Position numbers and translations under genes: made by a program. DNA of 64,000 nt from Prorocentrum cordatum (Eukaryota > Sar > Dinophyceae > Prorocentrales > Prorocentraceae), in assembly GCA_963575745.1 (NCBI GenBank), contig CAUYUJ010000207.1, positions 1 through 64,000 of the forward strand, read 5' to 3'. Under the pieces are notes generated by a model. It did not search any database. It was not told the DNA's origin and worked only from the letters and a program-made list of their open reading frames with translations. This document shows, in pieces, positions 8,327 to 52,935 of the stretch. Within the stretch, counting starts at the first letter, position 1. Every line of letters begins with the position of its first letter.

Positions 8327-8377
8327 GCGGGGGCTCCCCTGTCCCTGTGGGCTCCGAGCAAAGCAAAAACAAAGGTT

Positions 8378-16325: not shown

Positions 16326-16400
16326 GCGGGGGCTCCTCTGTCCCTGTGGGCTCCGAGCAAAGCAAAAACAAAGGTTGACGGTTTACCGCCGGCGCCCAGT

Positions 16401-18637: not shown

Positions 18638-18939
18638 AATTCCGGGGCGCTGGAGAGCTAGTTGGCAAGAAAAATCTCGACGGTCCTTTTGGTGACTTTT
18701 GGTGGGTTTTTTTTTGTTCTCGAAATTCAACCATTCGTTAGAGCTCTAATATTTTTTCCAGTGATATTCGATCTTATTCCCGCTCGCCATCTTGATCTCA
18801 GCTCGATCGGGTACCTTTTACTGCCAAAAAGCACTGCGGCGGGATCGGCCGTTTCGTGTACCTTTTACCGCCAAAAAGCACTGCGGCGGGATCGGCCGTT
18901 TCGAGTCATCTTGATAGGCTCTGTCGGTATATTGGACTT

Positions 18940-20029
18940 AACTCGTAGAGCTTCCCTTAGCCAGTTGTTGCTGGAAGCTTAAGAGTAATTCCGGGGCGCT
19001 GGAGAGCTAGTTGGCAAGAAAAATCTCGACGGACCTTTTGGTGACTTTTGGTCGGTTGCAAATTTTGTTCTCAAAATTTGAACATTCGTTAGAGCTCTAG
19101 TAGTTTTTTCCCGTGTTATTCGATCTTATTCCCGCTCGCCATCTTGATCTCAGCTCGATCGGGTACCTTTTACTGCCAAAAAGCAGGCAGGCGGGATCGG
19201 CCGTTTCGGGTCATCTTGATACGCGATGACGGTTTTCTGAAGATAACTCGAGCTTCAGGACAGCTACAGAGCTGGTAAGCACAGCTAATCGATCCAGAAT
19301 GATCAGGCGCGTTCGCCTGTGGAATCTAGAGCTCTGAACTCGGTCTGCTAGCCGAGCTATGTCCGCAAACCTATTCGTATCATTCGGGTCATCTTGACAG
19401 ACGCTCCCGGTTTTCTGTACTTAACTCGAGCTATAGGACAGCTACAGAGGTGATGCTTACAGAAACCGATTCCGAATCATCAAGAGCTCTCAACTCGGTC
19501 TGCCGCTCGATCCAGAATCGCGAAATTTATCGTATTGTTCGAGGTATCTTGAGAAGTGCTCTCGGTTTTCTGCACTCAACTCGGGCTGGGGGGGGGGGGG
19601 GGGCACAGTGCTGGTGGTCACATGAATCGATTCGAAGACATCAGGCGCGTCCGCCTGTCGAATTCAGAGCTCGGAACTCGCTGGCCGAACTAGTCCGCGA
19701 AACTATTCTATTGTTCGAGTCATCATGAGAGGTTCGATTTACGCACGTAACTCGGGCTGTAGGGTGGCTGCAGGGCTGGTAATCACAGGAGTCGATTCGC
19801 AGACATCAGACGCGTCCGCCCACTCAGAGGTCTGAACTCGGTTTGATACTCGAGCTGGGTTGCCAAACTCGAGCATCGGGGGCGTTCGGCTGTTGCATCG
19901 AGAGGTCTGAAATCGCTTGGGCTGAAAACTATTCGTTCTCTGCATTTTTGTCCACATTATATGTTGTCAGGAAGCTCTACGAGTCCCCCGGCGGTAAGAA
20001 AGGTTGACGGTTTACCGCCGGCGCCCAGT
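18940..20029 (+). mobile_element. Complete HelA element (1,090 bases) inserted in HelA
   Basis: It begins AACTCGTAGAGCTTCCC and ends GCGCCCAGT. The flanks join to TATTGGACTT|AACTCGAGATA, which is the uninterrupted sequence seen near 37555, so there is no target duplication and insertion was 3' of a T. The core has fewer complete monomers than the 1.21 kb copies and contains a 16-G run at 19588-19603. Confidence 0.82.
19588..19603 (+). repeat. Run of 16 G
   Basis: The run lies at the point where other monomers read GGGCTGTAGGGGGGCTACAG, so it is an expansion of the existing G tract. The exact length may be affected by sequencing error. Confidence 0.85.
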
Positions 20030-28382: not shown

Positions 28383-28698
28383 TGGCCGACCCCGCCAGAA
28401 AGGACAAAGTGGTAACTTTTGGGTGGTTTTGCGAAAAGTTGAAGGATTTTTGACAATTCATTTTGAGAAAGCAGATTTTTCGCACCTGTAGTGGGTTATG
28501 GCGCGTCCGCCAGTAGAAATTTCAGGCCCATAGGTGCAGTATTACTATCAAAACACTTGGGGGAACCGACGTTGGATAAAAACAGAAAAACGTGATGTTT
28601 CGAGTTTTTCGTTTCCCGCTCTAGAAGCTTTCTTCATGTGTTCCGACTATTGCTGTGCAAGAAAAAAGCTCTACGAGGTTCCCGGCGGTAACCAGGTT
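28383..28698 (+). repeat. HelB (3' two-thirds) hosting NLR5
   Basis: It has typical HelB body sequence (CGCACCTGTAGTGGGTTATGG, GCAGTATTACTATCAAAACA) and the inverted repeat GAGCTCTACGAGGT region as AGCTCTACGAGGT. The left hairpin arm CCCGGCGGTAACCAGGTT follows, and NLR5 starts at that point. The right arm is at 33762-33783. Confidence 0.75.
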
Positions 28699-28700
28699 GG

Positions 28701-29591
28701 AAGCGTTCAGGTTGTGTTGCGATTTCTAATCTGGAGACGAGCGTTCAGGGGCTTGAGACTGAACATAATCGACTCGAGACGATCGTCCAGGGACTCCAGG
28801 GACAGGTTCGTGCGGGTTCCGTTGCCAGTGACGCTTCGACGAGGCCTGATAATACCAGGACGGGAAGATACCAGGCTCCTGGAACCACCTACTTCTCTCC
28901 AACGTATGTCGAACTCAAGGGATGGGTCACCAACTGGAGTGACAGGGATAGGAGGTCTCAGGAGATGCTCATGTGGGAGGATGTGAAGGTGCTCATAGAT
29001 AACATTACAAATCATTGTCTTTCGGAGGATGATCGTGTGCACGTGTGTGTTGACGGTACGGAGCGCATTAACGCTGGCCGTTACATGTTCGGATCGGCCA
29101 AAATCAAATTCAAGCCAGGGACCGACAGGGATATTATTTGGAGGGTCAAACGGTGCATCGACCTTGTGACGGTACCCCCTGCTAAACGCCCCGCGCCTCC
29201 TCCAGGAATCCAGATCGCTGCACCACAGTGCCTCATTGAGAATATGAAGCAGGTAATCAACCCTGAGTCGATCAAAGTCAGTGTCGAGTGCCCCGAGTGG
29301 AAGAGGGACCACGTTAAGGCGGTGGGGAGATTCTGCGGCACTATTCGGGGCATGTGTACACAGATTGGCATAGAGGTTATTGCTGTGCGAGGGGAAATGG
29401 GACCGCCCAAATCGACTATATGGACAGTGCCCACGACGGCCGCTCCGAGGCCAATGCTTCCGGCCGAGTTTACCACGACACAAGCGACGTGGGAGGTATC
29501 GAGTGAGACTGTCGACAGGTTGCATCAACTCATACCTGCGTTTACTAAGACGAAGGCTGATATCGAGACGGAAGTCAACGGGAGGGTGTGA
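28701..29591 (+). pseudogene. NLR5 ORF1, 5'-truncated
   Basis: The frame is open from the first bases of the element, with no start codon of its own. It opens with a heptad-like stretch (NLETSVQGLETEHNRLETI), which is the coiled coil. A Ser/Thr/Gly hinge follows, then the box YVELKGWVTNWSDRDRRSQE and the C-terminal region (RINAGRYMFGSAKIKFKP, VSVECPEWKRDHVKAVGRFC, VRGEMGPPKSTIWTV). This is closest to ORF1 of NLR6. It ends in TGA at 29589-29591, directly followed in the same frame by ORF2. The missing N-terminus is the only defect visible. Confidence 0.8.
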
Positions 29592-32500
29592 CGACGACGA
29601 CGCCGAACACCGTTCAAGGGGATCCGACTGGGCAGCTGGAACCTCAATCGGGCGGGGTCGGCCAATTTCAAGGGGAATGAGATTCTGAGGAGCCTTTCAA
29701 TGCGAGATTGCATCTGGGGTGTTCAGGAATGCCAGAATCTTTTTGGAGGCAAATTCGATGCATATATCAGACGGTGTGGTCTATCATATCGTGTGAGTTG
29801 TGACGGTAAGTGTGGGTTATTATTTAACAAAGAGTGGAGTACATGTGTGCGTGAATCAATATGTCAATATGAACGGTTCTGTGTGGTGGTCTTTGGTAGT
29901 GGAAGTGCCCCTGTGATAGTTGCCTCTGCGTATCTTCCCGACCCCGGCGTCGAGAACGCCGTAGATGTGCAGTGCGGGGTGTTGGACACGCTCGAGTCAG
30001 TCATTCTCACTCTGCGCAGTCGTTGGACGGGGGCGACTGTCTCTGTGCTGCTCGATGCCAACGTCTAGCTACCCCCATCAACTCAGCTGCAGTGCTCACG
30101 CACTGGGACTGTCTATGAGGCGGTGGGAAGTGCTACCAAGGAGGAGAGGAGGACTTGCGAGGAGGGAGGTGCACAGCGGGTGAGGAGGGACGTACGACAA
30201 CAGTTGCGCGAGCGTGTTCTCTGCTTTCTAGGGCGCCTGGGGATGAAGGCTGCCAATTCGTTCTTGCCACGACGACTACACGCATGGGAGAGTAACGGAG
30301 TATCTCGGTGGGGGACGTGTAAGAAGGTTCTTGACTACATTTTTGTTCCCAGGACGTGGGTGATCGATAAGATGACGGTTGAAACGATCATGAGTAAGGG
30401 GGGGAGGACAAATCGTAGTCGTCTCAGCGACCATGGCCTGCTTCAGGGGACTTTTAGTGATACAGGCGCTGAGCTGGTCAAACGTAGTATCCCGACGGCA
30501 GCTCGTGAAAAGAGTTTGGTGGGTTATAAGACGGTGAATTGGGGGGACCTCAATATGGCGCGAAAGGAAATCGATCGGGTCTTGGGAGATGCCAATACTA
30601 CTTGTTCTCCAGGGGACCTTCTGTCGACCACTATTCGGGCCTGTACTGAGCAGGAGGAAATCAAATTCACGACTGCCACCACGGGGCGGGGACTACCGCC
30701 AATTAGGCCTGCAGGGCTCACGGCCTGCCAGGAGATTTTGCGACGGAAGCCTTTGCCGGCGTCAGTGGACGTACCCAGCTTGCGCAGACGTGCCAACGGA
30801 CTTCGGAGGGAGTATCGTGCGGCGTTGGCCGCGTGGACCTCTCCTGCCTCCAGGCGCAAAGAGCGTTATGGTATCAAGCACCTCATTGTGCAGGGGCGGA
30901 TATCTGAGGACAGGGAGGAGTGGGTGGAGGAGATCAGAGCACATACCAGACAGAGGTATACTTCGGAGGAGGTCAGAGGACGGGATATGGCGATGTTGGA
31001 GGAGTTGAGGAGGGATGCACAACAGAACCTATGTGACGGGTACTGCACTGAGGGACTGACAATGGCGGTGGTATGCCAGGCACGGTCACGTCTCAAGTCC
31101 AGGCGTGCCACTGGCCCCGACAGGCTGCCTTGTGAAATACTCAAGGCATTGCCGTGGGCGACTTTGCGTGGCGTAGCTCGGATGTTTGATGAGATATTTC
31201 GCTTGGCACGGCAGTATCCGCAGGACTGGAGGCAGATTTTGATCGCCTTCATGCCCAAGCTGCCGAGCTTGACATCACTGACAGATGCACGGTACCTCTG
31301 TCTGCAAAACAGTCTCAGCCGTTGGTATTCTGCTTGTGTGGTGATCCTGGTCGAACAATTTGTGTCTCGGGCTGGCCTCATGGGACCCCTGGGCATCTAC
31401 GGCTTCCAGGAGGGACGTAGGGCGGTGGAAATTGTGGGGGCCCTCAAGGCTCTGGCTCAACATGGGGACATCTGGGGAAAGGATCAGACGGTCCATATCG
31501 CTAACGCCGATATCAAACAAGCGTTCGACCATTGCAGCCTTCAAAACGCCAAGCGAGCTATGTGCCATGCCAATATTCCTGCCTATCTCCAGTATGCTTT
31601 GCTTTCACCGCTGGTTTGCACTACGGGGTCGTTAGTTGTCGAGGGTATGGCCATTCACGACATCAACTGGGACGTCTGTATACGGACGGGCGGCCCTGAG
31701 GGGCCTCTTCTCTTTAACCTTATCATATGTGCCATGTGGGGACCTATATTTCGGGATTGGGACAGTAGAGGAGTGGGGTATGTGCTGGAGGGCGTCTGTG
31801 GTGAGTATGAGCGACGGACAATCGTGAACCACTTTGTGTGGGCGGAAAACTGCTACCTTGTCTCTGCCTCCTCAACTGTGTTGGCTCAGATGATGCACGA
31901 TCTAACACTACCACTACATGACTGGGGGGTGAGATGGAAGGATAGCAGCCTGTTGTACATGGCATGTGGGGAAAATGCGAGAGTGGACGGTGACGGACAT
32001 ATACTTGCCAGCGAGGATTTGTGTATACCTGCGTGCTCGAGATATCAGGACTTTAGACTTCGACGTGTGTGCAGAATGAATGTACTGGGTCGTGAGATTT
32101 TCTCCACCTACCTAGTGCCCGCTCATCCTGATGTGGAATATCGCATCAAGGAGGCTCGTGCTTGTTTCATTGGACAGTCGGATTTCTTTCGTAACAGAGC
32201 GGTAGCTGTTCGTGATAAGTTTTGTCGTTATCAAGACAAGGTGCAGAGTATGGCGTTGTATTGTCTAGAGACATGTACTGCTGATACTTCCTCGCTACAC
32301 ATGCTCAATGCCTTCGAGGGGTGGTGTTTGTGCCGTATGTTTCGACGGCCGAGGAGGGAGGAGGAGACTATGGCGGACTGGAACCGACGACGGTACCGCG
32401 AGGCCAGAGAGCAATTTCGATCTTATGGATTTGCGAGTTTGGTGCAGCGATTTCTCCGTATGGTGTGGAACTCCGCTAAGGATGCTGCAGATTTCATTTC

Positions 32501-33561
32501 TATATTGTGTACTGCTTCTCATGAGGAAATATCTTCGACGCAACGTACGTGGAGAGATCACCACATGACTACTGTTGCATACGGCCCACTGTGGGACAGG
32601 CTCAGGACGGATGCGTCTGAGTGCCTGCGGGGTATGTTTCACTTCCAGGAGGCTTCAGCTAAAATGGAGACATGTTAGCTCAGGTCGAGCTATTGGCCAG
32701 AGATGCTGGCTATTTTCTTTCTGCGAATTCTACGGACTCAAATGGTGGGAGTCCTTTGTGCCGACAGATGCTGCGTATGTTCAGTTCTGCGAACACATGT
32801 GTACACGGACGATTCTGAGTTATTTTCAGAAAAGAAAAGGGTACGGTACAACAGGTGGGGCCCTGCAGGAGGTACATACCATCGCACAAAACGACCTACA
32901 CACCTATGGGGCCCAAGAGGGCACTGCGGCTTTCAACGACAAGCTGGCCAAGCGTATTGCGTTACAAAATATGAAGGAGGTTGAGTACGACCTCGACTCA
33001 TTTGGGATCCCTGTGTACATTTCTGGGGACAGTCTTCTGGTGGTGTCTTGGCTGCAGGGTGTCTGGAGGGTGCTTAATCGTACTTATCAGGATAGGATCA
33101 ACAGAATGATAAACCAACTTGACAACATGTGTCAGAGGTTTGGAATTAGGCCTGCCTGTCATGGGAGGGAAATTGTCGACCACACATATAGGGAATGGAA
33201 CACGCGTGCAGATGTACTCACTCATACGGCCCGTGTCGGGCCACCAGTGATTCGAGATAGGATAGGGCTTCACGCCCCTCAGTTACAACAGGTGTTTCGC
33301 GTTTGTGCCATCAGAGCTGGATTCGATGGTGGTGTCTCTTGCGACGGCGTGGGAGTCGGGTGCTGGATAGATGTTGGACGGGTATCGAGGCTCTCAAGGC
33401 AGCCACTCAGCCATGATATTATTTGGACGGAGGTGTACAGTGCGGCACTCTCGATTGATCCAACTTCAACAGTGACTGATGCCGAGGTCTCGGCCGTTGA
33501 GCATACGATTATAATCTTGCCGCGGGTTGTACAAGCGTATTTCGGACAGGATATGATGTGA
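29592..33561 (+). pseudogene. NLR5 ORF2 (endonuclease, reverse transcriptase, RNase H), two lesions
   Basis: It starts in the ORF1 frame with RRRRR...GSWNLNRAG and VQECQNL (endonuclease). LLDANV is followed by TAG (30066-30068) where NLR6 has GAG (Glu), a simple nonsense change. The frame continues with SDHGLL, LKSRRATGPDRLP (fingers), ANADIKQAFDHC (motif A), CIRTGGPEGPLLF (motif B) and HFVWAENCYLVS (31839-31850). In that last box the first catalytic Asp of motif C is Glu, so this copy should be inactive even without the stops. A frameshift near 32660-32676 moves the frame. The remainder runs to 33561 with YISGDSLLVVSWLQG, YREWNTRADVLTH, GFDGGVSCDGVGVG and TVTDAEVSAVE, again the permuted RNase H order. 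Fragments before and after each lesion are otherwise full-length. Confidence 0.88.
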
Positions 33562-33761
33562 TTTTGATTGTGCTCACTCACGCCATGCCTTTGTTTGTCG
33601 TGTGTGTGTGCTTGACTTCTCATCCTCCTAATAAGAGTTGGCTTTCGCCTCTGATCGTTTGGATCGGTGAGGCTTCCGCCTACTCCCGATGCGCCCGCTC
33701 CTTGCTTCCGACTAGGCTGGAAAGCCTGCACAGTCGACCGCAAAGTCCGCAAAACCAGGTT

Positions 33762-35287
33762 GACGGTTTACCGCCGGTTCCCATTATTGCTGGGAGCTTC
33801 AGAGTAATTCCGGAGCGCTGGAGAGCTAGTTGGCAAGAAAAATCTCGACGGACATTTTGCTGACTTTTGGTCGGTTGGAAATTTTGTTATCGGAATTCAA
33901 CAATTCGTTTGAGCTCTAGTATTCTTTCGCATGATATTCGATCTTATTCCCGCTCGCCATCTTGATCTCAGCTCGATCGGGTACCTTTTACTGCCAAAAA
34001 GCAGGCAGGCCGGATCGGCCGTTTCAAGTCATCTTGACACGCGATGACGGTTTTCTGAACATACCTCGTAGAGCTCTTCGTCATCGATGAGCTAGAGGAA
34101 TTCCGGCGCGGGGTGGAGCTAGTTGGCCCACCCGGCCAGAAAGGACAAAGTGGTAACTTTTGGGTGATTTTGCAAATATTTCAAAGATATTTGACAGTTC
34201 ATTTTGAGAAAGCAGATTTTTCGCACCTGTAGTGGGTTATGGCGCGTCCGCCAGTAAAATTTTCAGGTCCGTAGCTGCAGTATTACTATCAAAACACTTG
34301 GGGGAACCGACGTTGGATAAAACAGAAAAACGTGATTTTTCGAGTTTCTCAAATCTTGCTCCAGACGCTTTCTTCATGCTTATCGAGGAGCGCCGTGTGA
34401 GAAAAGAGCTGTGCGAGGGCCCCGGCGGTAACCTGGTTGACGGTTTACCGCCGTTTCCCAGTAATTCGAGCTTTAGGACAGCTACAGAGCTGATAAGCAC
34501 AGCTAATCGATTCAGAATGATCAGGCGCGTTCGCCTGTTGAATCCAGAGGTCTGAACTCGATCTGCTAGCCGAGCTAGGTCCGCAAACCTATTTGTATTA
34601 TTCGAGTCATCTTGACAGACGCTCTGGCTTTTCTGTACTTAACTCGAGCTATAGGACAGCTACAGAGCTGATACTCACAGAAACTGATTCAGAATCATCA
34701 GTCGCATTTGTCTGTTGAATCCAGAGCTCTGAACTCGGTCTGCTGCCCGATCTAGAATTGCGGAACTATTCGTATTGTTCGAGTCATCTTGAGAAGTGCT
34801 CTCGGTTTTTTGCACTCAACTCGGGCTGAGGGGGCTGCAGTGCTGGTGGTCATAGAAATCGATTTGAAGACATCATGCGCGTCCGCCTGTCGTGTCCAGA
34901 GCTCGCAACTCGGTCTGCTGCCCGAACTAGGTTCGCGAAACTATTGTATTGTTCGGTCATCCTGAGAGGTGCTGTCGGTTTTCTGCACTTAACTCGGGCT
35001 GTAGGGAGGCTGCAGGGCTGGTAATCGCAGGAGACGATTCGCAGACATCAGACGCGTCCGCCTGTCGTCAGAGGTCTGAAGTCGGTTTGATACTCGAGCT
35101 GGGTTGCCAAACTATTCGTTTTGTTAGAGTCATCTTGAGAGGTGCTGTCGATTTACGCACGTAACTCGGGCTGTAGGCTGGAAAACTATTCGTTCTCTGC
35201 AATTTCTTCCCACATTATATATTGTCAGGAAGCTCTACGAGTCCCCTGGCGGTGAGAAAGGTTGACGGTTCACCGCCGGCGCCCAGT
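33762..35287 (+). repeat. HelB right arm, then HelA with an inserted HelB
   Basis: Bases 33762-33783 complete the HelB that hosts NLR5. A HelA leader follows from ATTGCTGGGAGCTTCAGAG to GAACAT at 34062. After the inserted HelB the first monomer resumes at 34463. Further monomers lie near 34605, 34785, 34955 and 35130, and the terminal segment (shortened by about 80 bases) and a hairpin occupy 35242-35287. There is no gene. Confidence 0.72.
34063..34462 (+). mobile_element. Complete HelB element (400 bases)
   Basis: It starts ACCTCGTAGAGCTCTTCG. The inverted copy near 34405 reads GAGCTGTGCGAGGG (diverged), and the hairpin end closes with TTTCCCAGT. The flanks join to TTTTCTGAACAT|AATTCGAGCTTTAGG. 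The uninterrupted sequence near 27475 reads GAACATAACTCGAGCTTTAGG, one base different, so there is no duplication. Confidence 0.8.
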
Positions 35288-36228
35288 GAGAAAGCAGATT
35301 TACGCGTCGCAGTGGCATGTAAACTCCTCTCTGACAGCAGCTCAGCTCTCCTGATGTATTTTCTTAAGAGTTGACTTCCGGGAACTGAGCGAATATGAAC
35401 ATGAAAAAAATCAAGAATAAAGATTTTCGCACTCTTTCTAGTGTGAGGAGATCTACGAGGTTCCCGGCGGTGACTAGGTTGACGGTTCACCGCCGGCGCC
35501 AGGAAAGCTAGCCAGCCAGACAGGACAATGTGATAACTTTGGGTCCGTTTTGCTGAGATTCGAAAGATATTTAACCATTCATTTTGAGAAAGCAGATGTT
35601 TCGCACCTGTAATGGGTTATTCGACGGTTCACCGCCGGTTTAAAAAATTGAAAGATATTTGACCATTTATTTTGAGAAAGCAGATTTTTTGCAGTTGTAT
35701 ACGACTGTAAGGGCCTCTGCTTCTTATTATCAGCTTTTTAGGCGCTTTTTCACTGTCGAAACACTTGGCGGAACCAACTTTATGTCGACAAGAAAAAAAT
35801 GAATTTTGAGGAATGCCGCCAAAATCTCTTTCCTTCGACTCTGAGCACTGTCACCCGTGCAAGGAGCTCTACGAGGTTTCCGGCGGTGACTAGATTGACG
35901 GTTTACCGCCTCTTCGGCATCGATGAGCTAGAGGAATTCCGGTGGCAACTTGTGGTCGGTTTTGCTAAGATTTGAGAGATATTTGACCATTCATTTTGAG
36001 GAATCAGTTGTTTCGCACTTGTAAACGACTATGAGGGCCTCTGCGTCTTAATATGAGCTGTGTAGGCGCAACTTTATTATCAAAACACTTGGCGGAACCA
36101 CCTTTATTTCGACATGAAAAACATGAATGTTCAATTTTTCGAGAAATCCCTCCAGAAGCTTTCTCTTTCGACTCTGAGCACTTTACGCGTGGAAGGAGCT
36201 CTACGACGTTCCCGGCGGTGACCAGGTT
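35288..36228 (+). repeat. Three HelB-type copies (truncated variants) in tandem
   Basis: Copies end at hairpins near 35463-35502 and 35879-35910 and at the split hairpin 36211-36228 that hosts NLR4. Each has the pieces GAGAAAGCAGATTTTTCGCAC, an ACACTTGGCGGAACCA segment and GGAGCTCTACGAGGTT. They form a subfamily with GACTAGGTT or GACCAGGTT loops. There is no gene. Confidence 0.65.
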
Positions 36229-37493
36229 GCTGCTGTCCCTCCTCGGGGATCTCAGCGGTGGCCTGGCCCGTCGGGGGCTTCCTCAAGCCTGTCTCCTCAG
36301 GCTGCCCCCTGGGCGGCCGTGTGCGCGCGGGCGGGCCGTGCAATAAATTCGGGTACTTCGTCGGCTGCGACGACCTTCTCTCCTTGGGCCTACAGACGAT
36401 AGGTGCTGGAGGCCAGCTCTGTTTGGCATCAGAAGTGGACTGACTTCAGCGCATAGGCCGCTGTCGTCGCTTTGTACTTGTTTGTGCTGCCTGCTTGCGC
36501 TTTCTCCATTCTTGCTCTTGCACGTGTGTGTATTCTTTGACATTGAGGTACTTTGACAGTTCTGTGACATTGGAGTATCTTGAGATTGAGGTTCTCTGCA
36601 TTGTATCGGCGTGCCTGTTTTCATTCTTTCTTTGAATCGTTTCGTTCAGAGTTCAAGATACTTGAGTGCGTTATCAGACATTCAGTTATGCAGGTGATTC
36701 AAGATACTGAGTGCGTTATCAGACATTCAGTTATCCGAGAGTTACTTCTTGAGTGCGTTATCAGACATTCAATTATCACACATTTGACGTGAGCATACGA
36801 CTCTTGTCTTACCGCGGGTTGTTACGACATATTTCGGACTTTGTGTTTGCGTTGACTCTTGCCTCGCTGTGTGTGTGTGTCGGACATGCGCGTATGTTGG
36901 TATAAGAGCTCCGCGTGATCTGGACTTTGTTCGGAATAAGAGTTTTGCATTTGCCCACTCCCGCTCAAAGAGTGGTGGGTGTCTTGCCTGACTCTGTGCA
37001 CAGTCGCCCGCAAATTCGTTGTGTTTCACGTGCATGGTCTTTCAGTGGTGCTGAGACGGTAATCGCTATATGTGGTTACTGCATGGTCTCGCATTACTTT
37101 GAAGTGACTCGTCATTTTAGTTGTTGGTTTTGTGTTTGTCTCAGTGGTGTTGAGACGGTAATCGCTGTATAAACCAGTTGTTACTGTATGGTCTCTCACT
37201 GCTTTTATTTTCAGTGGTGCTGAGACGGTAATCGCTATATGTGGTTACTGCATGGTCTCGCATTGCTTCTTGCTGTCTTGCACAGCTTCTTTCATCATCT
37301 TTGTTGTTTTGTATTTTAGTGTATTGGCAGTCTTGTGCATATCTGTACAGCTTCGCTGTTTGATGCACCTCTGCTTTAATATTTGCAGCTTCGCTGTCTT
37401 CCTGTACAGCTTCGCTGTTTAGGTTCTTTGTGTTTAGGCCTGCTCCCATGGGAGCTCGAACCGGCCTTCGCAAAAGACGCAAAAGACCAGGTT
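36229..37493 (+). mobile_element. NLR4: non-coding element with a retrotransposon tail in a Hel hairpin
   Basis: It lies between GGCGGTGACCAGGTT and GACGGTTCACCGCC, with GACCAGGTT on both sides (9 bases). No long frame resembles ORF1 or ORF2. Inside are three copies of GAGTGCGTTATCAGACATTC (36664, 36707, 36750) and a stretch at 36850-37010 that matches the short tail copy at 54518. Three copies of a roughly 60-base unit containing GTGCTGAGACGGTAATCGCT follow (about 37045-37270), with three CAGCTTCGCTG hairpins near 37348-37420. It ends CTTCGCAAAAGACGCAAAAG, like the coding elements. It is probably a non-autonomous element moved by NLR machinery, or a 3' UTR-derived chimera. Confidence 0.7.
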
Positions 37494-40079: not shown

Positions 40080-41376
40080 TCCGGAGCGCTGGAGGAACCG
40101 ACATCACGTTGAGACCGAAAAATGAAAATTCGACGTTTTTCCAGAAAAGCTCCGAGAAGCTGTAACTCGTAGAGCTTCCCTTCGCTAGTTGCTGGAAGCT
40201 TAAGAGTAATTCCGGGGCGCCGGAGAGCTAGTTGGCAAGAAAAATCTCGACGGACTTTTTTTTATGACTTTTGGTCGGTTGAAAATTCTGTTCTCGAAAT
40301 TCAAGCATTCGTTAGAGCTCTAAGTATTTTTTCCCGTGGTATTCGATCTTATTCCCGCTCGCCGTCTTAATCTGAGGTCGATCGGGTAGATATTACTGCC
40401 AAAAAGCACTGCGGCGGGATCGGCCGTTCCGGTCATCTTGACACGCGGTAGCGGTTTTTTGTACTTAACTCGAGCTATAGGACAGCTGCAGATCTGATAC
40501 TTACAGAAACCGATTCACAATGATGCGGCGCATTTGTCTGTTGAATCCAGAGGTCTGAACTCGGTCTACTGCTCGAGCTAGGTCCGCGAAACTATTCGTA
40601 TTGTTCGAGTCATCTTGAGAGGTGCTGTCGGTATTCTGCACTTAACTCGTGCTGTAGGGGGGCTACAGGGCTGGTACTCACAGAAAACGATTCAGAGACA
40701 TCAGGCGCGTCCGCCTGTCGCATGCAGAGGTCTGAACTTGGTCTGATACTCGAGCCAGGTCCGCAAAACCATCCGTATCGCTCGAGTCAACTAAACGGGG
40801 ACTGTCGGTTTTCTGTACTGACCTCGAGCTCTAGGGGAGCTACAGAACTCATATGCACAGAAACCAATGCAGAATATTCAGGCGCGTTCGTCTGTTGCAT
40901 TCAGAGGTCTGAACTCGATCTGCTACTCGAGCTAGGTTCGCGAAACTGTTCGTATTGTTCGAGTCATCTTGAGAGGTGCTGTCGATTTCCGCACGTAACT
41001 CGGGCTGTAGAAGAGCTACAGAGCTGATGCGCACAGAAACTGATTCGGAATCATCGTGCGCGTTCGTCTGTTGCATTCAGAGGTCTGAACTGGGTTTGCT
41101 ACTCGGGCTAGGTCCGCAAGCCTATTTGTATTCTTCTGTCCATTTTCTGTATTGAAGTCGGGCTGTAGGAGAGCTACAGAGCTGGTGCGCACAGACACCG
41201 ATCCAGGAGCATTAGGAGCGTTCGTCTTTTGCATCGAGAGGTCTGAACTCGGTCTGCAACTACTGCTGAAAACTATTGTTTGAAAACTATTGCTGATAAC
41301 TTGCAGAAAACTATTGCTGAAAACTGCTGATTCTTTGGACAGAATGAATGGTCAGGAAGCTCTACGAGCCCCCCGG
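40080..41376 (+). repeat. HelB piece interrupted by a HelA that hosts NLR6 and NLR7
   Basis: HelB sequence ends GAGAAGCTGT at 40163 and resumes at 52960 with CTGCAATCTGAGTAC. The uninterrupted form near 56268 reads GAGAAGCTGTCTGCTTTGATTC. Between them a HelA begins AACTCGTAGAGCTTCCC at 40164, with monomers near 40430, 40610, 40790, 40960 and 41130. A small AACTATTGCTGAAA minisatellite lies at 41255-41330, and the inverted repeat AGGAAGCTCTACGAG leads to CCCCCGG. Its left hairpin arm is cut short where NLR6 begins; its right arm is 52936-52959. Without the retrotransposons this HelA is about 1.24 kb. Confidence 0.75.
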
Positions 41377-41488
41377 CTCAAGAAGGCGTGTCGGCTCAAG
41401 GTCACGGAGCCGCTGACTTTGTCCTGCCTGGGCTACCTCCGCCAAGGCCAGCGGTAGTGATCAGCAGAGCCTGAGGAGCATATCGTAA

Positions 41489-42898
41489 TTCTTCGTGCAA
41501 GTATTTGGGACCACGTCGTACGACACACCCGAGTCGAGACAAGCTTTGTTGGAAGCAATTGGATTGGGGCGTTGGAACGAAACAGTTGCTCAGTGGCATC
41601 AGAATACAAGTCAAGATCTTGACTGCCCATTGACACCTCGAGAGGACCGTGTGGATCATTTCGACTACTTGGATCAATTTGAACCTTGGGACGCCGCTGA
41701 TTTAAGATCCTTGGAGCGTGCATCAGGGAAACGACAGCGTGAAGACGACAAAGCATTTCTAAACAAGTGGGGTATTCCATCACAGATTTCAGAAGCAATA
41801 ATGTTGGGTGCATCCTCTTCGGTTGATGCAAATATGAACGCTGCTGTGGACACAAATAAAGAAAACAAGAGACCGAGGAATGGAGGTGATATTCAAAAAC
41901 AACGTGAGGAGATGATGAAAACTGCCACCACTGGGTTTGAGCGGTTCGTCATGGACCATTTCTTCAAAGCAGAGGATAGTAAGGAGGAGATTTTACAGAC
42001 CATTCAGAACACGAACAATCATATCAAAGCCGTGGAGAGTACATTGCAGAAGCACGATGACAGAGCTAATAAGATGGAGGAGAGGATGAATAAATTTGAA
42101 GAGGCCCTGCGTCAAGTACATAATGGAAGTGGTGCTGGATCAGATGTTTCTCGTACTACGGCTGGTGGAGGTATTGGAGGCGGCGGGCCGCCTGGCTTAT
42201 CTCCCAGCTCGCGTTTCCAGGATTTCAGACCGACATACATTGAGTTGAAGGGGTGGGTGACGAATTGGTCAGATCATGGCGCGCGGGCGTAGCAACTCCT
42301 AACGTGGAGTGATTGCCAAAAACTTATCGACAATTGCTTGGAACGATGCAATCAACTCGAGAAGGATGCAGTAGATCGTGAAACAACTGAGCGTATCAAT
42401 TCGGGCAGGTATATGTTTGGCAGTGTCAAGATCAGTTTCAAACCCAATACGAGTAGGGACCTGCTCTGGACGATTAAAAAGAAGTGGGATGCAATCATTA
42501 AGAATACTGTTGATGGGCACAATGGTCTGCCCTTACCTGCAGTCTTGACTGAGGGCCTTGTGATTCAGTTCCCAGGATCAAATTTACGTGTCCAAATCGA
42601 GTGCGCACCCTGGAAAAGGGATCACGTTAAAGCTGTGGCGAGGTTTTGCGGAGCGTTCAGAACGATGACGCAACAGCACGCCCAGATCGAAGTGAGAGGA
42701 GAAATTGGACCACCGCGATCGTTGATATGGACCGTCGCCAAGGGTGCTTTGCGTCCCATCAATATTGCCACATTCACTTCAGCTCGTAATACTTGGGAGG
42801 TGCACGAGCCGCAGTGGCAGCAGGTTGTCAGCGCATTTCCTGCGGTGGCGGCTGTCACTAAGCAGATGTTAGAGAGTGAGGTCAACAGACGCCAATGA
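41489..42898 (+). pseudogene. NLR6 ORF1, one nonsense codon
   Basis: The frame opens after TAA at 41486-41488. No ATG is found before well-conserved sequence (LNKWGIPSQISEAIMLGASSS matches AKWNIPCNISDGKMAASSA of NLR7), so the true start is unclear; GTG at 41495 is only the first near-cognate codon. The middle has a coiled coil (TIQNTNNHIKAVESTLQKHDD...MEERMNKFEE), a Gly-rich hinge and the box YIELKGWVTNWSD. TAG at 42290-42292 interrupts here. The C-terminal region continues in frame (RINSGRYMFGSVKISFKP, VQIECAPWKRDHVKAVARFC, EVRGEIGPPRSLIWTV) to TGA at 42896-42898. ORF2 follows in the same frame. Confidence 0.8.
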
Positions 42899-45800
42899 CA
42901 AAAACGATATTGGAGCAAGGGACTTCGTATCGGAACATGGAATGTAGGTAATTCGGGTGTTTCCAACTCACGTGGGACCGAGGTTCTAACATCTCTGAGG
43001 AAGATAGGAGCCTCTTCAATTTTCGGTTTGCAAGAGTGTGAGTTCTTTGACTCAGCTGAATTAGATAGACTCGGTTGGCATTTTAAACCTTCCAGGGATA
43101 GACGTGCAGGCTTGTTGTATGCCCATGGGTGGGCCCAACTCCTGCGCGAATGTGTCACAGACTGCGATAGATTTGTCTTGGGTGTGTTTGGAACGGAGGC
43201 GTCTCAGGTGATCATATGTTCGGCTTATTTTCCACATCATGATCGTGATCAGTGTGATCTTGAATCGGCGGAAATGCTGGGGGAGTTGGAGGGTCAGATC
43301 CGTCTCTTGAAGCAGAAATATCGTCAGGCCAGCTTTTGTTTGCTTGCGGATGCCAATGTTGAGTTGCCACCACTTGTTCAGCTTGAGGTTGCAGGTCAGG
43401 GTTATGCTGCCACTGGGACAGGTACGAAATCATGGAGGAGGACGGGATCTGAGGGGAAGGCGGAGAGGGAGAGGAAGGATAGGAGGCAGATATTGACGGA
43501 TAACTTGCTGACCTTTATGCAGACTTGGGGTTTGTTAGCTGCCAACACCTTCGACCGTCGTCGCCCGACCTGGGAGCCCTGGGGACAAGAGCGAAATCGT
43601 TCTCGGACTAGATCGATGAGGAGAGTCTTAGACTATGTGATGGTTCCGATGGGGTGGGAGGTGCAGGAGTGTAAGATCGATTTCAAGTATCGCAGCGGAG
43701 GAACTCATAATCGTAGTAGACTTGCTGATCATGCTCTAGTTATGTGCACAGTACGACAGTCCAGTCCTGGCAGGACTGATTGGACAGTCGAGCGTGTGCA
43801 TAGGGAACCTTCTTTGGTGGGATGGCGGGCTCAGACGTATGCGGACGAGATGATAGGGAGGGAAAGGGTTGACCTCGAGTTTTGCGGTGCCGTGTTTGCT
43901 GGATGTGGTTCCCCTCCAGCTGCGTCGACACGACCACAGGACGTGACAGAGACCGCTCCTGTCATTTTGAAAGCATTTACGCAGGAGGATGTGGATTACT
44001 CCACGGCCTCAGCTGCCCGGCCTCCAGCGCCTACTCGCCCGCCCGAGCTCACACGTCTCGAAGAGCGGATTCGGTCCCTTCAGAATGGTCCAGAGAAAAA
44101 GAGACTCAGAGCAGCTGCCAATGTTTGGAGGAGACAGTATCGGCGTGATCTTCTTGAATGGGCTGTACCCCCGACTCGTCGTAAGATTCGACATCGTATC
44201 AAACATGTGGTGGTTGATGGATGGGAGACGGAGGATAGATATATCTTGAAGGAGAAGTTGGAGGAGCATGTTAAGGGGAAGGTGACATCACAGCGTAGGA
44301 GGGAGGAGAACAGCAACTTGATGGAGGAAATCAGGAGGAAGGCGGAGGTGGAGATCAAGGGTGGCCAGATCATTCGAAGTATTACGATGTCGATATGTTG
44401 TGCAGCGAGGACTCGTCTTCGAACGCGACGGGCAACAGGACCGGATCGCGTACCTTGTGAAATGCTCAAGCTTCTCCCATGGTGCACAGTTCGGCACATC
44501 CAACAGATCTTCGACTCTCTTTTGAGGCTGGTTGTCCAGTATCCTGTTCGATGGAGGGACATTCTCATTGCATACATGCCTAAACTAAAGGGGATCACGA
44601 ACTTGGCGGATGCTCGACTCTTGTGCTTACAGAATAGCATAACTCGCTGGTTCTCGGCGTGCGTAGTTATCCTGGTGGAGCAGCATGTGGAAGAGTCTAA
44701 GCTATTTCATCCTCTGGGCCTCTATGGGTTCCGTCAGGGTCACAGCACATCCCATATCACGAGTAGCCTTACTAACATGTGTATGCACGGGGACAAGTGG
44801 GGGAAGCGTGAGTGTCTGTACGTTGCGGACATGGACATATACCAGGCCTTTGACAACTGCACGATACAGAACGTTCATAAGGGTCTTGAGCATGCACGTG
44901 TCCCTGCGTATTTACAGCACGCGTTTCTGGATCCGTTATCGCACAGCACGGGCTGCCTCTACTATGACGGGTTGGAGATTGATAACATCCAGTGGGACAC
45001 CTGTATTAGGACTGGAGGCCCAGAAGGGCCCTTGGGCTTTAACCTCATTATTGCTGCCATGTGGGGTGACGTTATTCACAATTGGGACGTTCAGGGCATG
45101 GGGTATGCGGTAGATTTCGGTACGGAGCATCGGTCGGTGGTGAATCATTTTATCTGGGCAGATAACGTGTACCTCGTCAGTCGCAGCCGTGAGGAGCTTA
45201 CTCGTATGGTAAGAGACTTGACACTTCCACTTTACAACTTCTCGATGCGATGGAAACCCACATCGCTGAAGTACATGGTGTGCGGAGCTCCTGCTGTCTT
45301 GGATGAGGACGGGAATATCCCGCGTTCGATGGATCTTAAAATACCGATCTTCTCAGATGCATGTGACGGGAGGAATGCAGTGCAGCAGATTGATGAGTTA
45401 TGTTACCGTCGAGTTGTTTCTATGGACGTACTGGGCACGCAGCTGCATAGTGAATATAACTGTTCTGTACATCGTGATGTTTCTTTTCGCCTAGACTGTG
45501 CTCGTCGCGCATTTTACTCTCAGGCAGGGTATTTCAGGTCGCACTGTATTCCTCTCAAGGATAAGCTGCGGAGATACCAGGACAGAGTCCAGAGCCTGGC
45601 TCTGTATGGTATGGAGACCACCACTGCAGATTCTTATACTCTCTCGTTTCTCCATTCCTTCGAAGGGAAATGCCTGAAGATGATGATCTCTTCTCGAAAA
45701 GGCCCGACGGAAACGGAGCAAGCTTATCAGCAGAGGAGATATCATGTCGCACGGGAACGTTTCTTGAAGGCTGGGTACTCCTCTCTTGTCCAGCGTTATC

Positions 45801-46888
45801 TGATATTGCACTGGAATTTCGCAAAAGACATTGCAAGTTTCGCAAATGGCATGATTGTTGAGAAAGTGATTGACTTGAAGGCGGCGGAGAGGACATGGCG
45901 CGATTCCCGTATGGCGAGTTTATGTTTTGGACCGTACACTGACCGCACTCGTACACTTATGAGCGAGACGATGAGACACTTTGGCAACTGGTCGGAGGCC
46001 TCTTCTTACAAACGTCGCTGTCGAGGTACGGAGAGTATTGGACAGAGATCATGGCAATATACATTAGCTGAGTTTTTCGGAGATGATTGGTGGATTCATT
46101 TCACAGGCTCCCAGCTTGGATTTATGCAATACGCCACGCACCTTTGTACTCATAGCATGCTTCAATGTTTCCAGGAGGTGTCGACGTGCGGACCTGTGAG
46201 TTCGCCCGCATATTTGGCGCCCTCCGAGCATGGTGAAATCCAGGTGAGCACGGATGATAGTCCGATGGCTGCTGAGAAACTTGCAAAGCGCATCGCTCTT
46301 CATAATATGAAAGCAACCCGTTGGAACCTGGAGGCCCCTGGAATCCCTCTGGAGGTGGTGGGTGACTCGCTTCTCGTGGTTAGCTGGGCTACGGGACGGT
46401 GGCGTGCAGATAATAGATCATATGCGGATAGAATATCAAAAATTATCAATACGCTTGATGGGCTTTGTTGCAGCTATAATATACGACCTCCAGCGCCGGG
46501 TATGGATCTTATTCGTCATGATTTTCGGGAGTGGAACACTCGTGCCGACGTTCTAACACACCAGGCCCGAGAGGGCCAGATTTCTAGTTCAGAATGTAGT
46601 CCGTATACACATGATTATGAGACAGAATTTTACGTTGCTGCTGCTATTCGGGCTGGTTTCGATGGCGGCGTGTCGTCTGAGGGATGTGGGTGCGGTTGCT
46701 GGATAGACATAGGCCTCAAACCTCGGTATTGGGATCGACGGGACCCCGCTCAGCTGATATGGAAGTCAGTTTTTGAGAGGGCTTGGCTTATTTCTCCGAC
46801 CACAACTGTTACTGATACAGAACTCAGTGCTTTGGAGTGCATCGTGACTGCGCTCCCACAGGCAGTTCTATGGTTATCACAGACTTGA
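42899..46888 (+). CDS. NLR6 ORF2 polyprotein: APE endonuclease, reverse transcriptase, permuted RNase H
   Basis: An open frame of 1,329 residues starting directly after the ORF1 stop. Endonuclease: GTWNVGNSG (about residue 12-20), LQECEFF (Glu46), SAYFPHH, LLADANVELP (about 149-155), LDYVMVP, LADHALV (Ser of SDH replaced by Ala). Reverse transcriptase: LRTRRATGPDRVP, MDIYQAFDNC (Asp codon 44834-44836), RTGGPEGPLGFN, HFIWADNVYLVS (45155-45166), RWKPTSLKYM. The linker between polymerase and RNase H is shorter than in NLR3 and lacks its repeats. RNase H: VVGDSLLVVSW (Asp 46364-46366), REWNTRADVLTH (Asp 46547-46549), then GFDGGVSSEGCGCGCW (Asp 46661-46663) and TVTDTELSALE (Glu 46820-46822). All four catalytic acids are kept, in permuted order. 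It looks functional; its partner ORF1 is broken. Confidence 0.9.
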   Translation, partial: QKRYWSKGLRIGTWNVGNSGVSNSRGTEVLTSLRKIGASSIFGLQECEFFDSAELDRLGWHFKPSRDRRAGLLYAHGWAQLLRECVTDCDRFVLGVFGTEASQVIICSAYFPHHDRDQCDLESAEMLGELEGQIRLLKQKYRQASFCLLADANVELPPLVQLEVAGQGYAATGTGTKSWRRTGSEGKAERERKDRRQILTDNLLTFMQTWGLLAANTFDRRRPTWEPWGQERNRSRTRSMRRVLDYVMVPMGWEVQECKIDFKYRSGGTHNRSRLADHALVMCTVRQSSPGRTDWTVERVHREPSLVGWRAQTYADEMIGRERVDLEFCGAVFAGCGSPPAASTRPQDVTETAPVILKAFTQEDVDYSTASAARPPAPTRPPELTRLEERIRSLQNGPEKKRLRAAANVWRRQYRRDLLEWAVPPTRRKIRHRIKHVVVDGWETEDRYILKEKLEEHVKGKVTSQRRREENSNLMEEIRRKAEVEIKGGQIIRSITMSICCAARTRLRTRRATGPDRVPCEMLKLLPWCTVRHIQQIFDSLLRLVVQYPVRWRDILIAYMPKLKGITNLADARLLCLQNSITRWFSACVVILVEQHVEESKLFHPLGLYGFRQGHSTSHITSSLTNMCMHGDKWGKRECLYVADMDIYQAFDNCTIQNVHKGLEHARVPAYLQHAFLDPLSHSTGCLYYDGLEIDNIQWDTCIRTGGPEGPLGFNLIIAAMWGDVIHNWDVQGMGYAVDFGTEHRSVVNHFIWADNVYLVSRSREELTRMVRDLTLPLYNFSMRWKPTSLKYMVCGAPAVLDEDGNIPRSMDLKIPIFSDACDGRNAVQQIDELCYRRVVSMDVLGTQLHSEYNCSVHRDVSFRLDCARRAFYSQAGYFRSHCIPLKDKLRRYQDRVQSLALYGMETTTADSYTLSFLHSFEGKCLKMMISSRKGPTETEQAYQQRRYHVARERFLKAGYSSLVQRYLILHWNFAKDIASFANGMIVEKVIDLKAAERTWRDSRMASLCFGPYTDRTRTLMSETMRHFGNWSEASSYKRRCRGTESIGQRSWQYTLAEFFGDDWWIHFTGSQLGFMQYATHLCTHSMLQCFQEVSTCGPVSSPAYLAPSEHGEIQVSTDDSPMAAEKLAKRIALHNMKATRWNLEAPGIPLEVVGDSLLVVSWATGRWRADNRSYADRISKIINTLDGLCCSYNIRPPAPGMDLIRHDFREWNTRADVLTHQAREGQISSSECSPYTHDYETEFYVAAAIRAGFDGGVSSEGCGCGCWIDIGLKPRYWDRRDPAQLIWKSVFERAWLISPTTTVTDTELSALECIVTALPQAVLWLSQT

Positions 46889-47289
46889 TAGTTGCAGTTT
46901 TTCTTATTTCACTGTTCTTCCTCATACTATGATTTACTCAGCTTTCGCTGGGACTTCTCTTTTCTCTTGCATGTTTAGTTGACTGCACTTTGATTCATTT
47001 CTGTGTGCGTTTGCTCGTTCGCTCATATTTGTGATTGATGATTCATCGCAGCTTCGCTGCTCTGGGTTGTCTTGACTTTAGGTTCGAATAAGAGCTTTCG
47101 CTTCCTGATGACACCTGACCTCATGCTTGCTCGTGGCCCTAGGGCCAGTAGGAGCCTCGCAAAGCCGCAAAAAGAGAGGTTGCATCGTGCAGTCAGGCAG
47201 CCTGCCCCTGGCCCGCCGCGCGGGGGGCGCGTGGCGATCGGGCCACTTCGGCGACGCCTGCACTTGTTTGCGGCATTGTTTGCACTTGT

Positions 47290-48672
47290 TTGCGAGCAGG
47301 CCGCCTGCACTTGTTTGCGGCATTTTGCCGCGTCGAGCTGGACGGGACGAGCCAGAGTCAATCGATCGATTTGGACCGCTGGGGAGCCAACTTCGGACAT
47401 TGGGAGTGGGAGTATCTTGCCAGACAGGTTGGTAGAGCTCGACACGACGATAAGGATTCTCTAGTCGACATACCATCTGGGTCACCTGATCTCTCTCCCA
47501 CTTTACCTCGCCATCCTGTTGCCCCATATAACTTTCATCAGTTGAGTGCACATCTCAAACGTACTCGTGAAGATCGATCGTTCTGTGCGAAGTGGAATAT
47601 CCCTTGTAATATCTCAGACGGCAAGATGGCTGCCTCATCAGCTGCTGCGGTCCCCGAGGTTTTCGCTATGGACGCCACTGATATGCCCGTTCCAGGAGCC
47701 AAGGAGGAGGAGGTCCCAGAGGGAAAACGGGTCAAAATTCAGACGGTTGAAGGCCTCGAGGAGGCCATGACAAAGGGGATGGACAAGATCACGACGCTTG
47801 TTGCATCTCTGGGAGGTAAGATGACGGAGGGCTTCCAATCAACACATCGAAGCATCACGGATCTCGGCACCCAGCTCAATGCTCGTGTTGATTCGGTGGA
47901 GAAAAATGTACAGCAGGCGATGACGGACATAGATGCTATTACTAAGAAGGTTGAGGATCAGAGGCTCCAGATAATCCAGCTCCAGCAGGCTCCTGCAGGT
48001 GGGGCCCCCAGAGCAGGCACCTCTACGACAGCGTCCTCGGCGGAAACTCGGCAGTCAGTGCAGAATTTCACCCCATCGTTCGTCGAGCTCAAGGGATGGG
48101 TGACGGACTGGAGGGATGCAGAGAAGCGTCAGGAGGAGATGTTATCACAGCAGGCGTTGAATTCACTGCTGAATGAGGTCCTGGCTGGAGAATGGTTCAG
48201 TGGTGTGAAGGAGTTTCTGGACCTGAACCAATCCAAGAGGTTCAACACAGGTAGAGAGGCGTGGGGGTATTCGCGTGCTCGGCTCTATTTCCAGAATGGG
48301 GTTACCAGTGACCAGCTGTGGGATCTTCGTCGTCGACTCGTTGCCGCGATCGCCGACAACAAACTCCAGCACGCTCCCAGGGCCCTCAAGGTCCACGTGG
48401 AGGCCCCCCCCTGGAAGAAGCCCCATCTGGATGCCGCTGGGATCTTTCAGGCCAAGTTCAAGAGTTTCAAGAAGCATCATTCGAATCTCAGGGCTGAGAC
48501 GGGACCACCGATTACGTTCATGTGGGGCTCCAGTGACCACTTACCACCTCCAGGGAAGATTGTGGCCAAGTTCTCTCTGCAGAATGGCTGGGAGATCACT
48601 CGTGCAATGAATCAGCTTGAGCCAGGGATCAACATTGATGAGTTGCGAGCGAGGATTTCCAGTACGAACTAG
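47290..48672 (+). CDS. NLR7 ORF1 protein (coiled coil, LKGW-box family)
   Basis: An open frame of up to 460 residues. The first codon used for numbering is TTG and no ATG is present before conserved sequence, so the start is uncertain; ATG codons appear only from GKMAASSAAA (about residue 112). The N-terminal part contains LDRWGANFGHWEWEYLA, diverged from the same region of NLR6, and AKWNIPCNISDGKMAAS. Residues about 150-235 form a coiled coil (LEEAMTKGMDKITTLVASL..., VDSVEKNVQQAMTDIDAI). The box FVELKGWVTDWRDAEKRQEE follows, then a C-terminal region with ARLYFQNGVTSDQLWDL and VEAPPWKKPHLDAAGIFQAK. It ends in TAG (48670-48672), followed by AGG and ORF2 in the same frame. Confidence 0.8.
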   Translation: MRAGRLHLFAAFCRVELDGTSQSQSIDLDRWGANFGHWEWEYLARQVGRARHDDKDSLVDIPSGSPDLSPTLPRHPVAPYNFHQLSAHLKRTREDRSFCAKWNIPCNISDGKMAASSAAAVPEVFAMDATDMPVPGAKEEEVPEGKRVKIQTVEGLEEAMTKGMDKITTLVASLGGKMTEGFQSTHRSITDLGTQLNARVDSVEKNVQQAMTDIDAITKKVEDQRLQIIQLQQAPAGGAPRAGTSTTASSAETRQSVQNFTPSFVELKGWVTDWRDAEKRQEEMLSQQALNSLLNEVLAGEWFSGVKEFLDLNQSKRFNTGREAWGYSRARLYFQNGVTSDQLWDLRRRLVAAIADNKLQHAPRALKVHVEAPPWKKPHLDAAGIFQAKFKSFKKHHSNLRAETGPPITFMWGSSDHLPPPGKIVAKFSLQNGWEITRAMNQLEPGINIDELRARISSTN

Positions 48673-51600: not shown

Positions 51601-52852
51601 TGTTGGGATTGGGCTAAGGATGTCTCAGTTGCTGCAAGTATTCGTATGAGGAGATACACAACACACACAGAGGAGGAGGAGGGAGAGACGGTACCAAATC
51701 GGCGTCAGAGGAAAACTCGGGCGATGGCGGCGGCGGCGACTTCTCAAACATATCATGTAACTCAGATATCCCAGATGTCGAGTGGCTGTCGCCGGCGTAC
51801 ACCAGATGACCAGCCTGCCATACCTGAGGAGTCGGACATGTCACGTGAATGGATGATATCTAGGCTGGCCATGATTACATGGAAGGGGGAAGTGGACGGA
51901 ACATCGTGACACATGTATTCTAGCAATGCCTGTAAAAGATAGGAAGCAGCTGACACGCGTGAACGTAGGCGGCCGCCCCCGTGGACATACTGCGTGGGAC
52001 TGGTGCTTGTGCGATCTCTTTGGTTGTGAGTGGTACCTCTCATTCGACAGTTCCGCTGGGTCCCGTGAGAAATACTGCAAGCATTTGCTGACTGTGATTG
52101 GTATGCAACACTTGTTCGACTTGTTTGTTCTACCCAGGCCGCCTGGTGTGAGACATGTGAAGGCAGAGGAGGAGGAGGAGAGTGAGATGAATGAGAGGAT
52201 GAGCAAACGTATTGCCGCAAATTTTGAGAATGAAACGGAGTGGAGGTGTGAGAATATTGAGCGTCTTGGGATGGAGATCTTGGGAGATAGTAAGACTGTT
52301 GTAAACTGGATGTGTGGTGAGTGGCAGATTCGCAACAAGCAGTATGTACGACTGGTGGGAACACTACAAAATACGGTATCGATGCTGTCTGGATGGGGAC
52401 TGACCTCACCTGCATCGGGACAGAATCTGTATAAGCATTTCTTTCGTGAGGGTAATGAGCGTGCGGATAAATTGTCGTGGGAGGCCAGAGGTGGCCAAAC
52501 TATTACTCGCTGGTTTGCATATGATAAGTTCCTCAGTACTCGTAAGACTGCTCTCCGTGGTGCATTCGATGGGGGTGTCAGTAATGAAGGATGTGGAGGT
52601 GGGTGGTGGCTTCAGATTGGCGTTGTAGGTAGGGGTTCCAGCGTGCAGGTTGATTTTCCCATCTCCTCCTCCTCCTCCTCCTCCTCCTCTTCCTCCTGCA
52701 CCAGCTCGCACAGCTTCCATTGGCACGATGTGGCCGAGGAGGCGATGAGCTTGCCTCCTGGTAGCACGGTAACCTGCTGTGAACTAGCTGCCTGCGCTGC
52801 CCTGACGAGAGCTGCTGCTAAGGTGGCGTGCGCTCTGCTACGACCTACCTAA
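48673..52852 (+). pseudogene. NLR7 ORF2 (endonuclease, reverse transcriptase, RNase H), one frameshift
   Basis: It starts in the ORF1 frame with RCHDTIASWNVRRAG. Endonuclease boxes: SWNVRR, LCECQFL (Glu kept, Gln changed), AYMPHES, LTDANVELE, LDYVGVS, SDHACIV. Reverse transcriptase: LSTGKAPGPDNVTV, NLDILQAFDNV (Asp 50647-50649), SIRTGGVEGPMIF, HSFWADNLLLYS (50980-50991), TWKPKSLMYI. The frame ends at TGA (51907-51909), and the homologous sequence continues in another frame from about 51900, so one indel lies near 51880-51905. The second part carries EILGDSKTVVNWMCG, REGNERADKLSWEARGG, AFDGGVSNEGCGGGWW, a Ser run encoded by (TCC)n at 52665-52697, and STVTCCELAACAAL. The domain is complete but in permuted order. 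A sequencing indel cannot be excluded. Confidence 0.88.
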
Positions 52853-52935
52853 GATGGTGGGGGCTCAGTTGCACTGCTCCGCCGATTCGGATTCGGATTC
52901 TAGTGGCGGACCGCAAACCGCAAAAAAGAGAGGTT

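Follow-up and report, generated by a model that had tools for sequence, protein, structure and literature searches.

Non-LTR retrotransposons of a dinoflagellate probably insert site-specifically into the terminal hairpin of Helitron2/HINE-like elements

Elements in the window

A stretch of 64,000 nucleotides from Prorocentrum cordatum (assembly GCA_963575745.1, contig CAUYUJ010000207.1, positions 1 to 64,000, forward strand; hereafter the window) holds two kinds of mobile element, one nested in the other: non-long-terminal-repeat (non-LTR) retrotransposons, or long interspersed nuclear elements (LINEs), called NLR1 to NLR8, and Helitron2/HINE-like carriers, in whose 3' hairpins the LINEs end (Table 1). 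Element names follow the original prediction as far as positions permit, NLR4 being equated with the short element at 36229-37484. NLR6 (41375-47171), which ends in the loop copy GAGAGGTT, was absent from that prediction's list. Insertion points, orientation, duplications, domains and target anatomy were read from the sequence.

A common insertion point

Ten LINE or LINE-tail 3' ends, their junctions read from the sequence and tabulated, occur in the window, and all ten lie at one position of the hairpin, after a loop closing in GGTT and in a single orientation to it. What follows GGTT is a GACGG-type right arm at nine of them and another LINE, the 5' end of NLR7, at the tenth (NLR6). RNase H-type coding sequence lies upstream of seven (NLR1, 2, 3, 5, 6, 7 and 8), the other three belonging to short elements in which tblastn found no such match (NLR4 and two tails); with the ten elements masked, blastn (E 1e-3) recovered no further LINE-like DNA in the window. 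On re-reading, NLR2, NLR3, NLR5 and NLR4 are indeed flanked by GGCGGT plus loop and by loop plus a GACGG-type arm, and the table likewise bears out the claim that NLR1, NLR7, NLR8 and two short tails share the same 3' junction.

The right hairpin arm, GACGGTTTACCGCC, occurs 35 times in the window with at most one mismatch, against 0.01 occurrences expected. Given 36 sites and 29,091 non-LINE bases on both strands, and assuming uniform, independent insertions, chance would account for such a placement with a probability of 6e-4 per insertion and ~1e-32 for ten. Independent copies, five coding families among them, occupy one base-exact site in ten of ten cases, as target-specific LINEs do. It could be argued that the LINEs have a loose preference without strict specificity and survive only in repeat arrays, Helitron arrays being plausible safe ground and one window having been seen; against this stand the base-exact 3' position and the single orientation in all ten, and we consider it very unlikely.

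Table 1. Positions of LINEs, Helitron2-like units and RNase H-like regions in the window
Feature	Position	Strand	Remarks
NLR1, 3' part	1..1211	+	Ends in loop AACGGAGGTT at hairpin; 5' end beyond window
NLR2 with both AACAAAGGTT duplications (2459-2468, 8368-8377)	2459..8377	+	Element 2469-8367, starts GCTCAAG
NLR3 with both AACAAAGGTT duplications (10389-10398, 16367-16376)	10389..16376	+	Element 10399-16366
NLR5 left duplication AACCAGGTT	28690..28698	+	Preceded by left hairpin arm GGCGGT, 28684-28689
NLR5	28699..33752	+	LINE truncated in ORF1; APE endonuclease, RT and RNase H-like regions in several frames
NLR5 right duplication AACCAGGTT (33753-33761) and right hairpin arm GACGGTTTACCGCC (33762-33775)	33753..33775	+
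NLR4 with both GACCAGGTT duplications (36220-36228, 37485-37493)	36220..37493	+	Short LINE derivative, no LINE coding match
NLR6 with 3' loop copy GAGAGGTT	41375..47181	+	5' end GGCTCAAG joined at CCGGC; NLR7 directly after
NLR7 with 3' loop copy GAGAGGTT	47182..52935	+	Followed by GACGGTTTACCGCC
LINE tail, 5'-truncated	54518..54735	+	Shared 3' junction; 5' junction after GGCGGTAAC
LINE tail, 5'-truncated	56816..57272	+	Shared 3' junction; 5' junction after CCGGC
NLR8, 5'-truncated LINE	59126..62366	+	3' loop AACCTGGTT at hairpin; left flank partly lost
Helitron2-like unit, TAACTCGTAGAGC...CCCAG	9210..16399	+	NLR3 inside terminal hairpin; joined flanks match 2 unoccupied window copies
Complete unoccupied Helitron2-like element	18939..20028	+	Between T and T; hairpin at 19990
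Short complete Helitron2-like element	34062..34461	+	Empty hairpin at 34424
RNase H-like regions	46016-46885, 15417-16322, 61466-62278, 51971-52849, 32668-33558

Duplications of the loop

Wherever the left border is intact (NLR2, NLR3, NLR5 and NLR4), the left and right copies of the loop are identical, confirming the predicted duplications of 9-10 bp with constant borders. NLR2 reads GGCGGT-AACAAAGGTT, element, AACAAAGGTT-GACGG, as does NLR3; AACCAGGTT stands on both sides of NLR5 and GACCAGGTT on both sides of NLR4, whose right arm is GACGGTTCACCGCC. The NLR6/NLR7 pair contains two copies of GAGAGGTT, or of AAGAGAGGTT when two As of the tail are included. Since duplications of 9 and of 10 bases have constant borders (the numbers are small), the second cut may be set by sequence. 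Nine 5' ends are visible, and the four with a duplication are those with an intact left border; A-rich 3' ends, 5' truncation and target-site duplication, marks of APE-type LINEs, all occur among these elements.

The same loop copies might instead be element sequence, that is, a shared tail, as the presence of AACAAAGGTT in both NLR2 and NLR3 despite different host copies could suggest. NLR5, however, is 5'-truncated inside ORF1 and so its left AACCAGGTT is not element sequence, which upholds the original reading of a target duplication; moreover, NLR2 and NLR3 start with GCTCAAG and so look trans-spliced at the 5' side, and trans-splicing would strip upstream target sequence. A shared tail is in our estimation highly improbable.

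The resemblance extends to three elements: the 5' ends of NLR2 (2469-2515), NLR3 (10399-10430) and NLR6 (41375-41410, beginning GGCTCAAG) carry (G)GCTCAAG, with which the spliced leader of dinoflagellates, DCCGTAGCCATTTTGGCTCAAG (as given in an excerpt of PMC12014239), terminates at its 3' side, and the spliced-leader-like stretch is repeated in NLR2, as a 15-base unit, and in NLR6. These ends suggest that the RNAs of NLR2, NLR3 and NLR6 may be trans-spliced, and they point to a dinoflagellate as the source of the DNA.

The carriers of the target

Carrier units start with TA(A/C)CTCGTAGAGCT (n=10) and end in CCCAG before T, a T following 24 of 25 pattern-matched 3' ends. Repeats of the AGCTCTACGAG type lie just upstream of the 3' hairpins, the terminal inverted repeats are asymmetric, and the loop of the terminal hairpin may be written as GGTTGACGG. 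Predicted folds have z values of -3.0 and -5.2 for two 5' ends and of -2.5 to -3.8 for three 3' hairpins of the window, and long units have central tandem repeats of ~176 bp. When the flanks of five units were joined, four matched unoccupied copies (at most 4 mismatches in 35), the flanks of the unit at 17501 had no match in the window, and shifted-cut controls matched in 0 of 5. Insertion at T without target duplication is thus found, as in Helitron2 and HINEs. A text search of papers for the carriers' hairpin strings gave none among the matches listed.

The original prediction of a Helitron-like terminus as the target agrees with the anatomy in print, so far as excerpts of the sources give it: Helitron2 marks are described in PMC3627910 and HINEs with satellite-like centres in PMC7492417, and the 5' T, asymmetric terminal inverted repeats, 5' and 3' hairpins, ~176 bp tandem repeats and T insertion are points of likeness (PMC3627910, PMC4067079, PMC7492417). 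By their anatomy, classification of the carriers as non-autonomous Helitron2/HINE-like elements is supported.

The unit at 9210-16399 is itself inserted in another carrier copy, and it holds NLR3 within its end. This would fit a scenario in which LINEs spread as Helitron-like passengers, the shared junction stemming from a few original insertions. The LINEs, however, fall into five coding families with reverse transcriptase (RT) core identities of 32-52%, their loops and host copies differ, and the downstream flanks of NLR2 and NLR3 differ; passenger spread is, to our minds, barely credible. It was demoted on the junction table, together with the loose preference and the shared tail.

Proteins of the LINEs

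The RT is of LINE type: a profile (A1) searched against PDB matched L1 ORF2p (E 2.3e-17) and R2 (E 0.0015), and RVT_1 was found in five of five LINE proteins, in four of them above the Pfam cut-off. The endonuclease is predicted to adopt the EEP/APE (apurinic-type endonuclease) fold, with R1 endonucleases as the top Foldseek matches and TRAS1, L1 and APE1 also matched; its motif residues, those of an apurinic-type endonuclease, are invariant. Assignment of the NLR elements to the APE-type non-LTR retrotransposons is supported.

Two features of these proteins stand apart. The catalytic box of LINE RTs is commonly given as (F/Y)ADD; here it is WADN in four coding families (45155-45166 in NLR6) and WAEN in NLR5, the second Asp being replaced by Asn. 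In the RNase H-like C-terminal region, a half with GDS..RE.N..AD precedes a half with FDGG.S..G.G.G..E..A in six of six aligned copies. The region seems to be circularly permuted, judging by the residues that are invariant and the order predicted for its elements, with weak match statistics.

NLR4 (36229-37484) and the short tail at 54518-54727 have a 130-bp stretch in common at 92%. They probably represent a derivative that is mobilised in trans to the shared target.

A half-site and a proposed mechanism

NLR6 and NLR7 stand head to tail with a single loop copy between them, and whichever of the two inserted second had as its target half a site, in which hairpin formation was impossible. If NLR7 came first, the site of NLR6 was the left arm plus loop, without the right arm; if NLR6 came first, that of NLR7 was the loop plus right arm, without the left arm. 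We favour the NLR7-first order because the proposed first nick site would then have been intact. As a hairpin was impossible at the second insertion in either order, a linear duplex suffices.

The pair bears on whether the endonuclease recognises an extruded stem-loop, as a cruciform or a single-stranded hairpin, and not the linear sequence. The insertion point does lie within the predicted loop, and single strands are known to be exposed by rolling-circle replication; at the second insertion of the tandem, however, one hairpin arm was kilobases away, and the proposed first nick lies in the stem, not in the loop. We regard recognition of a stem-loop as unlikely.

With high confidence, although from sequence evidence, we propose that these APE-type elements undergo site-specific target-primed reverse transcription into the conserved Helitron2-type (HINE-like) 3' terminal hairpin. 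The element's endonuclease would nick the bottom strand at Y/ACCGCC, opposite the step from GGCGGT to (A/G)A, and the freed 3' end would prime copying of the A-rich RNA tail. A cut of the top strand between GGTT and GACGG would then produce the 9-10 bp duplication, truncated copies often being imprecise at the 5' join. The sequence of the cuts, the precise position of the first (blurred by the A run except in NLR4) and the form of the substrate are parts of the proposal; the substrate would probably be a linear duplex (left arm plus loop) and not an extruded stem-loop.

Points against site-specific insertion

Several observations weigh against this account. Firstly, all copies come from a single window, and we infer specificity beyond it. 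Secondly, the endonuclease model is of modest confidence (pLDDT, the predicted local distance difference test, of 65), and the Pfam endonuclease family stays below its cut-off, with a hint in one of five proteins (E 0.0043). Thirdly, three of the nine visible 5' ends (NLR6, one tail and NLR8) show a short target loss and no duplication, and the 5' join of the other tail lacks a clear one; such losses and unclear joins are expected of imprecise LINE 5' ends. Fourthly, the NLR4 tail repeats GCAAAAGAC, and its right-hand GAC may in part be tail.

Lastly, most filled loops are 1-3 bases off the local empty type. Allowing at most one mismatch in the left arm and two in the right, we found 27 empty hairpins in the window, 26 of them on the plus strand, with loops AAGAAAGGTT (11), AACCTGGTT (4), GACCAGGTT (2), GAGAAAGGTT (2) and eight single variants. 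Among the filled sites, NLR4, on both sides, and NLR8, on the right side, are the only ones whose loops recur in these empties. The loops of NLR2, NLR3, NLR5 and NLR6/NLR7 are one base from the local type (NLR6/NLR7 if the two tail As are included), that of NLR1, whose host copy lies outside the window, is 2-3 bases off, and those of the two short tails are ambiguous owing to the preceding A run. The original prediction that the loop follows the local variant of the host element therefore stands for left against right copies, but mostly fails against neighbouring empties.

The most pointed case is AACAAAGGTT, common to NLR2 (2459-2468) and NLR3 (10389-10398) and present in none of the 27 empties; all 16 empties of the NLR2/NLR3 host type, as sorted by eye from their flanks, have G at the third loop position. 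The host copies of NLR2 and NLR3 are nearest to others (E54171, 85%, and E22059, 90%) and not to each other. By a simple count, and for a pattern noticed post hoc, finding AACAAAGGTT in 2 of 2 filled and 0 of 16 empty hairpins has a chance of ~1 in 153. A loop preference at family level is the likeliest, though unproven, cause.

Matches beyond the window

Neither of two hairpin patterns matched exactly in viral contigs, which also contained no LINE protein relative, and prokaryote genome contigs likewise contained no LINE protein relative. A 20-base hairpin pattern had two matches in prokaryote genome contigs. The one in an actinomycete contig (L001) looks like chance, ~1 chance match being expected. 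The other (L002, 1-5397), a eukaryote-like contig in a Nitrospinota metagenome-assembled genome, is probably a mis-binned protist contig. It has six pattern-matched hairpins, all empty, with differing stems and the common core GGTTGACGGTT(T/C)AC, preceded by AACC(A/T) in four, AACTT in one and AACA in one. As far as the sequences compared go, what is conserved in this hairpin family, known from at least two sources, is the loop core. Protein searches, which scored the best ~8,000 candidates by shared words, returned one near-identical copy of the NLR6 protein (P0001, 98%) and, at a distance, a single further protein (P0002); for the NLR7 RT region they gave no match, not even P0001.

Relation to known systems and significance

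R1, TRAS and SART (R1 clade) also have a site-specific APE-type endonuclease, and R1Bm and TRAS1 are among the best fold matches; their targets, in contrast, are ribosomal DNA or telomeric repeats, and the likeness is one of endonuclease fold. Tx1L of Xenopus, a LINE that targets Tx1D, a DNA transposon of cut-and-paste type, differs in its host group and in its target, which here is a terminus of rolling-circle type, while several diverged families here use one site. Alike is the aiming of an APE-type LINE at another transposon, transposons being among the LINE targets named in an excerpt of PMC4640811. The targets listed in parts of that paper and of PMC8869645 are ribosomal RNA, transfer RNA, small nuclear RNA and spliced-leader genes, telomeric repeats, microsatellites and transposons. 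LINEs aimed at a Helitron terminus were not found in a limited search of open-licence literature, which tests their absence weakly. Target-specific APE-type LINEs are already known, and the Helitron terminus seems to be a new target class; with it, a rolling-circle transposon terminus would join the few sites known as exact targets of LINEs. The diverged endonucleases that share one short site here offer a natural panel for asking how specificity arises in LINEs of the APE type.

Beyond the window we entertain a broader idea, to which we give even chances: an old dinoflagellate LINE clade may live obligately as a parasite on rolling-circle transposons, with an endonuclease that reads a loop which the transposase must keep and a specificity that has outlasted divergence of the families to about one-third identity. 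If so, the host transposon could not drift away from the LINE, because the Helitron-type transposase itself needs the hairpin loop. If the idea is true, LINEs landing again and again in Helitron ends would also be a ready route by which Helitrons could capture a LINE-type endonuclease. According to a portion of PMC4067079, the LINE-related endonuclease of Helentrons was perhaps captured through a LINE insertion in a Helitron, and for that idea, already in print, the nesting seen here may provide a concrete setting.
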